From positions 1-45,723 of the forward strand of contig CAMCVV010000016.1 in assembly GCA_945881905.1 (NCBI GenBank): 45,723 nt of DNA. Direction: 5' to 3'. The notes beneath the pieces were generated by a model. That model was given only the letters and a program-made list of their open reading frames with translations, was not told the DNA's origin and did not search any database. Position 1 is the stretch's first letter, and each line of letters begins with the position of its first letter. This DNA is from Paenibacillus alvei. GTDB taxonomy: Bacteria; Bacillota; Bacilli; Paenibacillales; NBRC-103111. Of this stretch, positions 17,723 through 23,138 are shown piece after piece. Made by a program: the position numbers and the translations under genes.

Positions 17723-18820
17723 CTATTTCTTGAGTTTATTTTTTGGGGCGGCTAATTTGGCTTCGCGTTCCCATTTTTTTAACAAGGGATAAGGATCAAA
17801 AGACCCATCATGCTGTCCTCGATCACGATACAGTCCATAGTGTAAATGAGGAGGGAACTTCCCTGTCGTACCTGGCTTTCCATAGCCACTGCTTCCCACC
17901 CAACCGATGGTAAGGCCAGGCTTCACGACATCACCAACCTTAATTTGTTTATCAAAACCACTCAGATGAGCGTAATAGTGATAATAATTGTCCAAATCCC
18001 GAATCCCGATCCGCCAGCCTCCATACGCATTCCATCCTAATTCTTCCACTACACCAAAGCAAGTACTTCCAACGGGTGTACCACCTCTAGCAAATATATC
18101 ACTACCTTCATGTATGCGTCTTCCGCCCCAACCGCGTTTAGCTCCCCATGTACTTTGATATGCATATGAAGACTTCGTGGATAAGGGGAAGGTATGCTGT
18201 TTGAGGTCAAGTGTTTCGTAAGTTGTAAAAATTTTGGCGAATTGTTGTATGCGCTCAACTGCACGAGGATTCTGGTAATAGTCCCATAATCCAATCAGAA
18301 GATCTTCTTCACGTTTTCCATGTTTGTGAAGAACTGCAATCACAGTAGCAAGCACATCGAGATCGTCATGTCGATTCGCTACGCCATCCCCTGAACCGTC
18401 TCTGCCTATTCCTTGATAGAAAGATATCGTATAGGGATCCGTATCTTGCGGGTTCGGATTGAGCATACCTGTCCAAGTGTTTTCGGGGATTGTAATGGCA
18501 ATTATGCGTTGGAGGGATTCGACTTGCTTAAGGGATCGATTTGCTTGCATGCTTCGTTCATATTGATCCATCGCTGCAAGATAGTTCCAAGGTATTCCCG
18601 TGAGTAAGCTTACGTGCTCGAACAGGATCTTGCGCTGATGGAGGTCTTCCGCATGATCAATGTCGTTCGTTCGCCAAGCATACAAGGAAGATGCTTCAAC
18701 ATGAGATGGAGATGTTGAGAAAATACAAGAGAACATAAAAAAGAACATACAAACATAATGACCCCAAAAGTTTCGCATGTTAATGAAGCACATCTTCATC
18801 CGACCATGATATTTGTTCAT
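17723..18820 (-). CDS. lytH: M23 family metallopeptidase, LytH-like spore cortex enzyme
   Basis: A 365-residue exported peptidoglycan peptidase. A signal/anchor segment (about residues 16-35) follows a basic start. The C-terminal LytM/M23 zinc domain has RIHEGSDIFARGGTPV (H and D ligands) near 240, YYHYYAHLSG near 290, and PHLHYGLYRD (H-x-H) near 335. B. subtilis LytH (YunA), an L-Ala-D-Glu peptidase that makes single-alanine side chains in the cortex, sits beside yunB as here. The start at 18820 is set by AGGATGG; an upstream TTG/ATG frame has no SD. The enzymatic specificity is inferred from synteny. Confidence 0.85.
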   Translation of the reverse strand: MNKYHGRMKMCFINMRNFWGHYVCMFFFMFSCIFSTSPSHVEASSLYAWRTNDIDHAEDLHQRKILFEHVSLLTGIPWNYLAAMDQYERSMQANRSLKQVESLQRIIAITIPENTWTGMLNPNPQDTDPYTISFYQGIGRDGSGDGVANRHDDLDVLATVIAVLHKHGKREEDLLIGLWDYYQNPRAVERIQQFAKIFTTYETLDLKQHTFPLSTKSSYAYQSTWGAKRGWGGRRIHEGSDIFARGGTPVGSTCFGVVEELGWNAYGGWRIGIRDLDNYYHYYAHLSGFDKQIKVGDVVKPGLTIGWVGSSGYGKPGTTGKFPPHLHYGLYRDRGQHDGSFDPYPLLKKWEREAKLAAPKNKLKK

Positions 18821-18961
18821 GGAGACCATCCTAATTGTATTGATACAAGTCATGCGTCAGAATAGATGCCACATTAGGCTACGCAACTTGTTCGATTTTA
18901 AGATGTGCGATTCTTTGGGTTTTATCCATGATGGGGAAAGATTCCTTTTTTCGTTTTTTTT

Positions 18962-18970
18962 TGTTATGAT
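18962..18970 (+). promoter_or_regulatory. extended -10 promoter of the detached larC C-terminal gene
   Basis: TGtTATGAT (18962-18970) is an extended -10 23 bases before the start. The -35 region is T-rich and weak. It gives the inverted larC segment its own transcription start. Confidence 0.45.
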
Positions 18971-18992
18971 GCAAAGAAAGTGAGGTGGGCCT

Positions 18993-19466
18993 ATGGTTTT
19001 TAACCATATTGAAGAGCATATCGATGATCGGATGATCATTATTCAAGTGAACATCGATGACATGAATCCGGAATGGACATCTTTTATTTCTGAGAAACTT
19101 TTTGCAGAAGGTGCAAACGATGTGTATTGGATTCCAATTATTATGAAAAAAGGAAGACCAGGGATTATGCTGAATGTTCTTGTTCATGAAGAACAACTCA
19201 CAGCAATGGAAGCCATCATTTTCACAGAAACGACGACTCTCGGTATAAGATATGTACACGCAACATGCCATCGTTTGGCCAGAGAATTCGTATCTGTAGA
19301 GACAACGTGGGGTATCGTTCAAGTGAAAGTCGGATATTACCAAGGCAAACGCGTACAATTCGCTCCTGAATATCAACAATGCGCAGACATCGCCAAACAA
19401 CACCATGTTCCCTTGAAGCAAGTCTACGAACAAGTGAGGCTGTTGTTTGAGAAATCCAATGCATAA
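18993..19466 (+). CDS. larC2: LarC C-terminal domain (LarC2) encoded as a separate gene on the opposite strand
   Basis: A 157-residue protein that is the C-terminal domain of LarC (DUF111), the CTP-dependent nickel insertase of the NPN cofactor pathway. Seen: VNIDDMNPEW at residues 19-28, GANDVYWIPIIMKKGRPGIMLNVL near 41-64 and FTETTTLGIRY near 78-88, all conserved LarC C-terminal motifs, then a VKVGYYQGK...FAPEYQQC segment. It has its own SD, GAGGTGG, five bases before the ATG. The N-terminal half of LarC is on the minus strand at 19492-20418, so the two halves converge tail to tail 25 bases apart. In Lactobacillus plantarum LarC1 and LarC2 are joined by a programmed frameshift; that is impossible here. 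Confidence 0.9.
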   Translation: MVFNHIEEHIDDRMIIIQVNIDDMNPEWTSFISEKLFAEGANDVYWIPIIMKKGRPGIMLNVLVHEEQLTAMEAIIFTETTTLGIRYVHATCHRLAREFVSVETTWGIVQVKVGYYQGKRVQFAPEYQQCADIAKQHHVPLKQVYEQVRLLFEKSNA

Positions 19467-19491
19467 AACGTTATTCGTCAGTGGATGAATC

Positions 19492-20418
19492 TTAAAGCGG
19501 GAAGATATCGCGATAACGTTGGTGATCGTCGCGTTGGTGATCGTCGCGTTGGTGATCTTCACGGGTGGAATCGTGATGGTGATTGTCGTGATGGTGATCG
19601 TCGTGATGGTGATTGTCATGATGCCCATGTTGTTGGTGAAGGTTCTGGACGATGTAATCATGATTCGCTTGCCATTGACCTATCGACGGGTCCATCGTTC
19701 CAATAATCACTCGAAGTACATTGGGTTGTTCTTTCATATCTCTTGTTCCTGCACCATACCCAATTGCTTCTACGATCATGGGAGGAATGCTTTTGGAGAA
19801 CTCATGACAAATTCCTGAAATAATACCTGCACCTGTTGGTGTTGTGAGCTCAACACTGTAAGGAGAAGATGCAATCGGTAATCCTTTCATCATTTCTAGC
19901 GTAGCTGGAGCAGGAATTGGATAGATCCCATGACCCATGCGAACCGTTCCTGAACCGAGTGGAACAGGAGAAGTATATATTTTACTAATATGCAATGAAT
20001 CAATAGCTAAAGCAACTGCAATAATATCAATAATGGAGTCCATCGCACCAACTTCGTGGAAGTGAACTTTTTCTAGGGGAATATCATGAATTTTCGCTTC
20101 AGCTATACCGATTTTCTCGAAAATCGCTTGACTTAGAGAAGTAACACGTTCATTAAATCCTGCTTCACGAATCATTTTTACGATGTCAGCGTAATGACGG
20201 TGATGCTTTGGTGGGTGAGACTTGTCTAAGATCACATCAAATTTCAGTGCAGAAATCCCTTGTTTGTTTACACGGTTCCATTCAAGCGTGTACGCATCAA
20301 GCTTCATTCTACCTAGTTCTTCTTCGATATACGAACGGTCCGCGCCTGCATCTACGAGCGCTGCAACAGTCATATCGCCACTAATTCCAGAAAAGCAGTC
20401 CAAATATAAGATACGCAT
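19492..20418 (-). CDS. larC: LarC N-terminal part (LarC1) with His-rich tail
   Basis: A 308-residue N-terminal half of the nickel insertase LarC, which installs Ni in the pincer nucleotide cofactor of lactate racemase and relatives. It opens with YLDCFSGISGDMTVAAL at residues 5-21 and has EKVHFHEVGAMDSIIDI near 121-137, LarC hallmarks. The last 50 residues are extremely rich in His and Asp (HHHDN/HHHDD units, then DDHQR repeats), a likely metal-binding linker, after which the frame stops. The usual C-terminal VNIDDMNPE domain is absent here and is encoded on the plus strand at 18993. AGGAAGTG precedes the ATG. It is last in larE-larB-larC. Confidence 0.93.
   Translation of the reverse strand: MRILYLDCFSGISGDMTVAALVDAGADRSYIEEELGRMKLDAYTLEWNRVNKQGISALKFDVILDKSHPPKHHRHYADIVKMIREAGFNERVTSLSQAIFEKIGIAEAKIHDIPLEKVHFHEVGAMDSIIDIIAVALAIDSLHISKIYTSPVPLGSGTVRMGHGIYPIPAPATLEMMKGLPIASSPYSVELTTPTGAGIISGICHEFSKSIPPMIVEAIGYGAGTRDMKEQPNVLRVIIGTMDPSIGQWQANHDYIVQNLHQQHGHHDNHHHDDHHHDNHHHDSTREDHQRDDHQRDDHQRYRDIFPL
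19518..19615. repeat. two sets of 15-bp tandem repeats in larC1
   Basis: Three units of gttggtgatcgtcgc-type (19518-19532, 19533-19547, 19548-19562) and three of tcgtgatggtgattg-type (19571-19585, 19586-19600, 19601-19615) encode the DDHQR and HHHDN/D pentapeptides of the His-rich tail. Copy number may vary between strains. Confidence 0.9.
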
Positions 20419-20421
20419 GAT

Positions 20422-21195
20422 TCACTTCCTAGACGATATATTTGTATTGATGAGTCCTGCATAATATCCTGCACCAAATCCATTATCGATGTTCACTACG
20501 GATATGCCTGGAGCACACGCATTAAGCATTGAAAGTAATGCAGCCATTCCTTGGAAATTCGCGCCATAACCTACACTTGTCGGAACTGCAATGATCGGGC
20601 TAGACACGAGTCCACCTAGCACACTGGCTAAGGCACCCTCCATGCCTGCAGCAACAACTATCGCATTCGCACCGCGAATTAATTCGAGTCTGCGAAACAA
20701 GCGATGAATGCCTGCAACGCCGACATCATAAATCCGTTCCACGCGATTACCCATGCATTCAGCAGTCACAGCAGCTTCTTCTGCAACTGGCATGTCGGAG
20801 GTTCCGGCACATACGACAGCAACATAGCCTTCATTCCAAAGTAAATTAGGGTCACGTCGAGTGAGAGCTCGTGCCGAAACGTGGTAATCAATTCCTGGAA
20901 TCACAGCTTGCACATGGGCAGCTATATGAGCATCGACACGTGTGACAATGACTTGATTCGTGTGTTCAATCATCCGTTGCATGATGATTGCGATTTGTTC
21001 TGCGCTTTTACCTTCTCCAAATATGACTTCAGGAAATCCGGTTCTCTTCTTTCTTTCTAGGTCCAACTGTGCAAATCCCAAGTCGATCGAAAGCGGTTGT
21101 GATGCAGCGTGCAATTGCGCTAAGTGATGTTTGACTTCTGTCATGTTTAGCGTACCCGCTTGAAATTCTTGTAATAAGGTATCTATGTCTGTCAT
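20422..21195 (-). CDS. larB: LarB, pyridinium-3,5-biscarboxylic acid mononucleotide synthase
   Basis: A 257-residue PurE-like enzyme that carboxylates and hydrolyses nicotinic acid adenine dinucleotide in the first step of NPN synthesis. Seen: LDLERKKRTGFPEVIFGEGKS near residues 45-65, VVCAGTSDMPVAEEAAVTAE near 125-144, and GVAGIHRLF. The C-terminal NACAPGISVVNIDNGFGAGYYA near 226 carries a cysteine in the region where LarB has its NaAD-reactive Cys. It overlaps larE by four bases and is three bases from larC, so larE-larB-larC form one tight operon. Confidence 0.95.
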   Translation of the reverse strand: MTDIDTLLQEFQAGTLNMTEVKHHLAQLHAASQPLSIDLGFAQLDLERKKRTGFPEVIFGEGKSAEQIAIIMQRMIEHTNQVIVTRVDAHIAAHVQAVIPGIDYHVSARALTRRDPNLLWNEGYVAVVCAGTSDMPVAEEAAVTAECMGNRVERIYDVGVAGIHRLFRRLELIRGANAIVVAAGMEGALASVLGGLVSSPIIAVPTSVGYGANFQGMAALLSMLNACAPGISVVNIDNGFGAGYYAGLINTNISSRK

Positions 21196-22040
21196 ATGGT
21201 TTCAGCCTTAACTTTGTCTTTGGTTGCTTGCGAGAGCACTTCATTCATACTGCCTGTCCGATAACCTTGTAGATCGAGTGTTACATAAGTAAACCCTAAT
21301 TCAGTGAATTTGGCGTAGATTTGTTCGCTATGTGTAATCACTTTGCTCATTTCATCGGGCATGACTTCGATCCGTGCTATGGTATCGTGATGTCTGACGC
21401 GTACTTGATATAAACCAAGTTGTGCTAAGAAGTATTCACCTTGATCGAGCTGATCGATTTTCCATTTCTCGATTATGGTGCCATAAGGAATTCTAGAGGA
21501 AAGACAAGCAAAAGAAGCTTTATTCCAAGTAGGTAGCTCTAGTTCTTTGGATAATTGGCGTATTTCTTCTTTATAAAGACCAGCTTCTTGCAACACACTG
21601 CGAACGCCTTGCTCAGTTTTGGCTTTGAGACCAGGACGATAATCGCCAAGATCATCGACATTTGAACCGTCTAGAATGTAGGAATATCCCATATTTTTGG
21701 CAAGAACCTGCAAATGTGAATACAGGCCGGTTTTACAGTGATAGCAGCGATCAGGATTATTGGCGACAAAGTCGGCATTCTCAAGTTCTTTGACTTCCGT
21801 CTTATATAGCGTCACACCCATGGTTTCTGCAAGTTCCACAGCAGCATCAAATTCTCTAGAGGGAAAAGTTTCTGAAGCAGCAGTTACAGCAAGCACTTGA
21901 TCTCCAAGTACTTGATGAGCTCGTTTTAATACAAATGTACTGTCTACACCTCCAGAGAAAGCAACCATAACTTTCTGCATGCCTAGTAAAATTTCTCCAA
22001 GCCGCACATTTTTTTGACGCACATCATGTGCTATTGTCAT
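21192..22040 (-). CDS. larE: LarE, ATP-dependent sulfur transferase for NPN synthesis
   Basis: A 282-residue PP-loop enzyme that adenylylates and thiolates the carboxylates of the pincer precursor. The P-loop SGGVDS is at residues 29-34. Cys179 in FACLSSRIPYG lies where LarE enzymes have the sacrificial or cluster-binding cysteine. A second pair, CYHC (99-102), is visible. The start at 22040 is chosen because AAAGGAGTG lies upstream; an open frame runs on 34 codons further but has no SD. It is the first gene of the operon. larA, the racemase that uses the cofactor, is not in the window. Confidence 0.94.
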   Translation of the reverse strand: MTIAHDVRQKNVRLGEILLGMQKVMVAFSGGVDSTFVLKRAHQVLGDQVLAVTAASETFPSREFDAAVELAETMGVTLYKTEVKELENADFVANNPDRCYHCKTGLYSHLQVLAKNMGYSYILDGSNVDDLGDYRPGLKAKTEQGVRSVLQEAGLYKEEIRQLSKELELPTWNKASFACLSSRIPYGTIIEKWKIDQLDQGEYFLAQLGLYQVRVRHHDTIARIEVMPDEMSKVITHSEQIYAKFTELGFTYVTLDLQGYRTGSMNEVLSQATKDKVKAETI

Positions 22041-22094
22041 TGTGTCTTTCACTCCTTTATGGACAATTATCAGAACGACGTGTAAGTAAGTAAA

Positions 22095-22136
22095 ATCATA
22101 GGCCATGTGCAAACGTATCATACGGCGTGAGGTATG
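22095..22136 (-). promoter_or_regulatory. candidate lar operon promoter with inverted repeat
   Basis: On the minus strand TATGAT (22100-22095) is a fair -10. At the -35 position, in place of a consensus box, sits an inverted repeat CATAC-N8-GTATG (22119-22136). A poor -35 with a repeat over it is the layout expected of an activator-dependent promoter. This is inference. Confidence 0.3.
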
Positions 22137-22220
22137 TATCATCTATGTAATCGAATACTTATAGTTTATCATAAATTCTATCTGAGCGGGTAACTCAGAA
22201 GTGGATTGTATTCATTTTCA

Positions 22221-22229
22221 TGGTATAAT
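22221..22229 (+). promoter_or_regulatory. extended -10 promoter of lipA
   Basis: TGgTATAAT (22221-22229) is a consensus extended -10, 37 bases before the lipA start. The -35 is poor. Confidence 0.6.
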
Positions 22230-22265
22230 ATAATTCATAAAACGCCTCTAAGGGAGGAATTGGAC

Positions 22266-23138
22266 ATGGCAACCAGAGATATCTTGCGAAAGCCTGATTG
22301 GTTGAAAATCAAGCTTGAAACAGGTGATAATTATAAAGAACTAAAATCCATGATGCGTTCAAAAACGTTACATACCGTTTGTGAAGAAGCAAAATGTCCG
22401 AATATTCACGAATGTTGGACAAATCGTACAGCAACATTTATGATTCTAGGAGATATATGCACACGTGCTTGTCGGTTTTGCGCTGTAAACCATGGATTAC
22501 CAACTGAGCTTGACCTAGAAGAACCACGACGCGTCGCAGAAGCAGCTGTACAAATGGGACTTAAGCACTGTGTAGTCACTTCTGTAGCAAGAGACGATCT
22601 TATCGATGGAGGAGCAAGTATTTTCGCTCAGACGATTGATGCAATCAAACAACAGCTACCTATGTGTAGTGTCGAAGTATTGATACCTGATTTCATGGGA
22701 AGAGAACAGTCATTGCACATCGTCTTGGTGGCAAAGCCACACGTCCTTAACCATAATATAGAAACGGTAGAGCGTTTGTCTGATCGTGTTCGTTCTAAAG
22801 CCAAATATCATCGATCTTTAGCTTTGCTTAAACAATCCAAACAAATCGCACCTCAGATTCCAACGAAATCAAGCTTGATGCTTGGATTAGGTGAGCAATG
22901 GCATGAAATTCTACAAACCATGGATGATTTGAGAAATGCAGATGTCGATATTTTGACGATGGGTCAATATTTACAACCATCTACTAAGCATTTATATGTC
23001 GAACAATTTTACACTCCCGAACAATTTGCGGATTTGAAACAAGAAGGCATGAACAGAGGATTCAAGCATGTAGAGTCCGGACCACTTGTAAGAAGCTCGT
23101 ACCATGCGCGTGAACAGTTACACGCGATACACAATTAA
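22266..23138 (+). CDS. lipA: lipoyl synthase
   Basis: A 290-residue radical SAM enzyme that inserts two sulfurs into protein-bound octanoyl groups to make lipoyl cofactors. The auxiliary cluster motif C39-x4-C44-x5-C50 and the radical SAM motif C65-x3-C69-x2-C72 (CTRACRFC) are both intact. The C-terminal VRSSYHA provides the serine ligand of the auxiliary cluster. The start at 22266 follows GGGAGG; an upstream ATG (22206) overlaps the promoter. yutD follows, the same pair as in B. subtilis. Confidence 0.97.

Follow-up and report, generated by a model that had tools for sequence, protein, structure and literature searches.

larC divided between two convergent genes in Paenibacillus alvei and its relatives: a probable two-subunit nickel insertase

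Examination of the window, a stretch of 45,723 nucleotides from Paenibacillus alvei (contig CAMCVV010000016.1), revealed two separate genes for the nickel insertase LarC, lying on opposite strands and converging tail to tail with 25 bp between their stop codons. Both open reading frames stand at the coordinates and on the strands given in an earlier note made from the sequence alone: larC2 (18993-19466, plus strand) codes for a stand-alone C-terminal domain of 157 aa and larC1 (19492-20418, minus strand) for a stand-alone N-terminal domain of 308 aa. The plus-strand protein, which that note had identified as the LarC C-terminal domain, was recognised as such in profile searches, with a match to PF01969 over profile positions 238-375 (E 1.8e-47) and to the NCBIfam LarC2 model NF052512 (E 2.2e-43, 147.1 bits for a curated cut-off of 50). 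The larC1 frame matches positions 1-235 of PF01969 (E 2.1e-91) and the NCBIfam LarC1 model TIGR00299 (E 8.3e-63, 211.1 bits for a curated cut-off of 90), and its product is matched by the full LarC of PDB entry 12bi in a phmmer search (E 5.6e-50). When the complete genome (2.40 Mb in 87 contigs) was searched with the profile, PF01969 matched in these two places only, and no other larC was found. The AlphaFold2 model of LarC2 (pLDDT 92.9) resembles 6bwo_A according to Foldseek (TM 0.82/0.89, E 2.9e-14), and the LarC1 model (pLDDT 86.8) had no match with E up to 0.001 among PDB folds in a library extending to April 2026.

Directly upstream of larC1 lies larB (20422-21195, minus strand; NF033503, E 1e-89), itself preceded by larE (21192-22142, minus strand; TIGR00268, E 4.2e-106). 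The ends of larE and larB overlap by 4 nt, larB and larC1 are 3 nt apart, and the three genes probably form a single operon. The LarE protein has a CYHC pair and a further cysteine (in SFACLSSR), and may belong to the three-cysteine [4Fe-4S] type rather than to the single sacrificial cysteine type. Another contig encodes a full LarA homologue, comprising both the N and the C domain (PF09861 and PF21113), so that the pathway has a likely client and the NPN biosynthesis set is complete in this genome, with larB, larE, larC1 and larC2 in the window and the LarA homologue elsewhere. The latter directly adjoins a glycerate kinase gene (L113:835-3268), a neighbour which suggests that glycerate may be its substrate; glycerate racemization is described for LarA homologues in PMC11770544. 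The same genome also encodes a second, weak Lar_N/DUF362-like protein (L114:802-2160; PF09861, 29.2 bits).

The larC2 gene carries the expression signals of its own that had been ascribed to it, namely a Shine-Dalgarno-like GAGGTGG (18982-18988, plus strand) and an extended -10 element, TGTTATGAT (18962-18970, plus strand), situated 31 nt before the ATG. Of 42 family loci, the window included, 24 have an element of the same type (TG.TAT.[AC]T) in the 80 nt that precede the presumed larC2 start and 18 do not; the loci are related, so that the 24 do not count as independent events. In 18 of the 24 the element stands 28-34 nt before larC2; block shuffles gave a mean of 0.8 and a maximum of 4 such elements, and none was found on the reverse strand. 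The gene upstream of larC2 (17723-18853, minus strand) reads away from it, so that larC2 is probably transcribed by itself. A general promoter scan of positions 18700-22400 found no -35/-10 site at larC2 and a total of 10 sites versus 9.6 in shuffles, and a search of the same interval for intrinsic terminators gave 3 versus 2.4 in shuffles, none of them at the junction. There is no terminator-like hairpin at the larC1/larC2 junction of the window, which suggests that the two transcripts may overlap and that read-through could produce RNA antisense to either gene. A conserved bidirectional terminator at such junctions was considered and rejected: terminator-like hairpins occur at 6 of the 27 family junctions shorter than 200 bp, versus 1.25 expected from shuffles, in no case on both strands, and are not a general feature.

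The histidine-rich stretch previously described as a linker between the two halves is actually the C-terminal tail of LarC1 (19495-19695, minus strand). It contains 17 His and is partly encoded by tandem repeats of about 15 bp (19520-19617 and 19571-19623). In 26 fused LarCs from Bacilli, the linker between C1 and C2 has no more than 3 His in its 3-31 residues; the histidines are found inside LarC1, with a median of 21.5 in domain residues 51-150 (range 4-38). In the split form of the window's family, by contrast, the internal region holds 3-8 His at 38 of 38 convergent loci, and the C-terminal tail, counted to the stop codon of the open frame, holds 17-83 (median 49.5). The window, with 8 internal His and 17 in the tail, has the lowest tail count of the 38. 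Among other families, referred to here by our own labels, the LarC1 of f32 retains internal His (median 25) and has no tail, and that of f6 has both. Judging from its composition, the tail may hold nickel.

Gene order and strand were compared in relatives, as the earlier note had proposed. LarC is present in 98 of 104 family genomes, the window's included, in split form in 97 and fused in one (G002). The two genes are convergent on one contig in 95 of the 97 split genomes, again including the window's, and 13 of the 95 are listed as one contig; the other two (G006 and G081) carry the halves on different contigs, where relative orientation is undecidable. The gap between domain hits in convergent family genomes varies from 215 bp to 14.8 kb with a median of 541 bp, suggesting that sequence came and went between the genes with their orientation unchanged. 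A few family genomes (G022, G030, G072, G078) show an additional partial match, or a gene spread over two frames. Forty-one further family loci, which overlap with the family genomes and are not independent of them, all carry the label Paenibacillus, P. eucommiae, P. validus and P. elgii being among them; 37 contain both genes, convergent in all 37, and the other four stretches show only LarC2. This makes 38 convergent loci including the window, with an ORF gap below 200 bp in 27.

The layout extends beyond the family. In a sample of the order (246 genomes, family included), 124 genomes have LarC, 26 of them outside the family: 12 convergent (in f4, f6, f7 and f9), eight with separate frames on the same strand, and six with a single frame. 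The eight same-strand genomes all belong to f10, three appearing as two matches and five as one match read through stops. A sample of the class (398 genomes) gave 110 genomes with a match, 109 of them over the cut-off, and at least 23 convergent genomes distributed in f1, f17, f32, f33 and f41; the 22 besides the window were re-derived as convergent from their loci. Convergent pairs are thus found in four other families of the order and in at least four families elsewhere in the class, with loci L118, L126 and L127 assigned this label by hand. Among the class-sample matches listed, many other families have fused genes, several have genes split on the same strand, and one genome (G298) has a divergent pair.

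LarC and LarB occur together. Of the 104 family genomes, the 98 with LarC are also those in which LarB is over the cut-off; in the remaining six (G019, G020, G057, G059, G061, G087) none of LarB, LarC1 and LarC2 reaches it. At family loci, LarC1 has a median dN/dS of 0.095 (87 pairs) and LarC2 one of 0.067 (46 pairs), family rows under a score of 380 (C1) or 200 (C2) being left out, and since the pairs shown that include the window's genes are saturated, these medians speak for the relatives, in which larC1 and larC2 are under purifying selection. The proposal of two independent polypeptides under selection is thus supported in the relatives, and no other larC was found in the genome.

At the residue level, the window's LarC1 keeps 58 of the 66 columns that are at least 92% one residue in the 26 fused LarCs, including the positions of HFHEVGA.D.I.D, TPTGA and GYG.G. 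Its LarC2 keeps 24 of 27 such columns, the three changes being Q11 for E, C85 for R and Q121 for E. Column 85 is Arg in 24 of the 26 fused LarCs and Lys in two; every one of the 43 convergent rows has Cys or Val there, as have 14 of the 19 tandem rows. The loss of Arg therefore marks the split lineage, in which the chemistry or the interface of LarC2 may have changed.

A draft assembly in 87 contigs might suggest that the arrangement is an assembly error, or that the larC genes are broken and decaying. The layout recurs, however, in 94 further genomes of the family, including 13 given as a single contig, and this, with low dN/dS in the relatives and intact frames and motifs in the window, refutes the explanation, to which we attach almost no credence; a family-wide layout is also not a recent event. 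On the strength of these comparisons we hold it very probable that larC is here an old and functional two-gene system whose products, LarC1 and LarC2, jointly act as nickel insertase. A predicted two-subunit insertase is well supported, the enzyme probably working as two protein pieces and not as one. The larE-larB-larC1 operon on the minus strand would provide the first two enzymes of the pathway along with LarC1, which retains the conserved motifs and whose His-rich tail would likely hold nickel, and the convergent larC2 would provide LarC2 from its own extended -10 promoter. The two proteins would then come together in the cell, a LarC1-LarC2 complex being the most likely form. By analogy with the catalytic steps published for single-chain LarC, such a complex would use CTP and nickel to convert the dithiolated precursor (P2TMN) into the nickel-pincer cofactor, which would go to the LarA homologue encoded elsewhere in the genome.

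An unlikely variant of this scheme would have LarC1 and LarC2 act in sequence with no stable complex, LarC2 performing the CTP step and LarC1 handling nickel. Structures exist of the LarC2 domain alone (6bwo, 6bwq, 6bwr), and at three f13 and f51 loci larC1 and larC2 lie 6-12 kb apart, so that tight coupling of their synthesis is not needed there. Against it stand the presence of both halves in 97 of 97 split family genomes and the many other families that keep them fused, observations which speak to retention and are no measure of a complex.

As to the origin of the split, the earlier note invoked an inversion and pointed to an 8-bp inverted repeat flanking the segment, which it allowed could be chance. 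The repeat does match, but one like it turned up in 13.6% of 2000 random placements; with the repeat at chance level and the layout family-wide, a recent inversion marked by it was rejected. An ancient inversion is possible, as is a split by duplication and reciprocal loss. We give a nearly even chance to a route in which larC underwent fission in place and the larC2 segment was then inverted once. Split genes on the same strand are found in f10, f13, f51, f61 and f66, with 9-62 open-frame residues before LarC2. A lead of the EH.D type ([EA][HQ].D) before LarC2 is common to convergent (42/43) and tandem (14/19) rows, occurs also in divergent (1/1) and separate-contig (2/2) rows, and is absent from orphan (0/3) and fused (0/26) ones. 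Tandem and convergent LarC2 moreover fall in one group of 63 rows in the LarC2 tree (SH-aLRT 94, just under the starred level). Against this route, there is no inversion scar, the 8-bp repeat being at chance level, and it leaves unexplained the LarC2 extensions found in f32, f17 (L143) and f21 (L223).

These extensions bear on the alternative that larC was duplicated and that reciprocal loss left LarC1 in one copy and LarC2 in the other, which we consider possible and somewhat on the improbable side. In two f16 genomes (G437, G525; L218:1894-7846, L219:1710-8004), a gene for intact LarC1 alone is accompanied by a second LarC of 403 or 406 aa, located on the same strand at a distance of 3.9 kb, in which the LarC2 half is intact and the LarC1 half degenerate. 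The degenerate halves have lost the HFHEVGA and TPTGA motifs and match the intact LarC1 profile with E 2.6e-28 and 3.8e-25 (database size 1); the other two f16 genes weaken the case, with E 0.17 (L217) and no match (L216). However, f16 lies outside the convergent groups in both the LarC1 and the LarC2 tree, with its two genes on one strand, and therefore represents a parallel case and not the ancestor. In f32, 171-254 open-frame residues precede the LarC2 domain at 16 of 16 convergent loci, and this extension aligns colinearly with the end of LarC1 (L201-L203 being left out of the alignment). The hhalign score is 25.3, as against 13.3 +/- 2.5 for shuffles, the highest of which reached 25.0 (0 of 200 as high); without the f17 and f21 rows it is 24.1, with 1 of 200 column shuffles as high. 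The Pfam LarC stretch enters the extension in three of four f32 proteins (L146, L151 and L152, from profile positions 162-171; not L149), and does not run into the f17 extension of L143. The f32 extension may be a remnant of LarC1, and f32 stands with the window's family in one starred LarC1 clade. On the other side, the hhalign probability is only 5-14%, single f32 extensions reach E 2.2e-4 at best (database size 1), and the window's LarC2 has no extension. A remnant specifically of the f16 type is unsupported: against the f16 degenerate halves alone, 19 of 100 shuffles scored as high.

The clade in question contains 39 rows, 37 convergent, one on separate contigs and one tandem, and unites the convergent rows of f1, f4, f6, f7, f9 and f32, with f17, f33 and f41 outside. 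The convergent label changes five times on the LarC1 tree and four times on the LarC2 tree, for shuffled means of 30 and 31, both trees being quick searches and the LarC2 alignment having only 141 columns. Each tree includes only 12 family rows and leaves out L214/L215 (G485, halves at two contig ends) and L123 and L125 (f6); the LarC1 tree also leaves out L144 and all rows scoring 220 or less for LarC1. A more specific and rather doubtful version of the duplication route derives the convergent pair from a tail-to-tail duplication of whole larC, in which each copy lost the other's half to give an obligate two-subunit insertase. The f16 genes would then illustrate, in parallel, an early stage, in which a full-length second LarC has a decaying LarC1 half; a middle stage, with a short remnant of LarC1 ahead of LarC2, would be seen in f32, f17 (L143) and f21 (L223), and the end stage in the window's family, whose His-rich stretch would have moved from the internal region to the C-terminal end of LarC1.

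Two groups of relatives show unusual LarC2 proteins. In two f41 genomes of one genus (L154:3144-4271, L155:3402-4532), the convergent LarC2 carries a DinB_2 domain as a C-terminal fusion, with weaker matches to mycothiol-dependent enzyme families. Three f32 genomes (G348, G314 and G378; L201, L202 and L203) keep an extended LarC2 without a LarC1 match. Some conserved LarC2 residues are changed in these three proteins, and LarB is not over the cut-off in any of the three genomes, which argues that they are orphan genes and not evidence for a LarC1-free enzyme; either a relic or a new use may be involved.

LarC catalyses an unusual reaction, the CTP-assisted building of a nickel cofactor. Because a whole family keeps the domains on separate genes, each subunit can be produced and mutated on its own, combined with the other, and assayed for nickel and CTP binding. 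In addition, the Bacilli, in which larC is found fused, in tandem, convergent, or with a second copy degenerate in one half, offer a compact case of an enzyme becoming two subunits.

Among known systems, single-chain LarC, such as that of Moorella thermoacetica and that of PDB 12bi-12bl, differs from that of the window in being one polypeptide, and 12bi is homologous to both window halves; nickel insertion by LarC is CTP-dependent, with a cytidinylylated intermediate for the Moorella enzyme, according to PMC11796402. The 26 fused LarCs of Bacilli differ likewise from the split form, having His inside LarC1 and a LarC2 without the EH.D-type lead. Structures 6bwo, 6bwq and 6bwr share the fold of the window's LarC2; they are titled C-terminal domain of the cyclometallase, whereas in the window LarC2 is the whole product of a gene. 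NCBIfam already has one model for LarC1 and another for LarC2. Biscarboxylate mononucleotide synthase is presumably LarB, so that a "larC2" bearing this name, as in Anaerobutyricum, may not be LarC2. In PMC7702098, Anaerobutyricum larC1 and larC2 are listed as two genes, both detected in the proteome, and larC2 carries the name and EC number of biscarboxylate mononucleotide synthase. No convergent or opposite-strand larC was found among the titles and abstract starts listed by searches of the open-licence PubMed Central literature, which is not proof that none has been published.

The closest counterparts are LarCs in two open frames. On plasmids of Paenibacillus cellulositrophicus and Niallia taxi, LarC1 and LarC2 occupy two separate frames as in the window; their genes are adjacent on one strand, where coupling or frameshifting is possible, unlike in the window. 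A plasmid of Lactiplantibacillus (Lactobacillus) plantarum (L237), typed as mobilizable, carries larA-larB-larC1-larC2-larE followed by an aquaporin-family gene. Its LarC resembles that of the window in having the same two domains in two open frames, and differs in that larC1 and larC2 lie on one strand, where the stop-to-stop frames overlap by 58 nt and the annotated genes do not overlap. The two L. plantarum genes are reportedly joined by a programmed frameshift, which is impossible for the opposite-strand genes of the window, as had been pointed out earlier. A split LarC is thus already known, and the opposite-strand, convergent and family-wide form described here is a variant of it.
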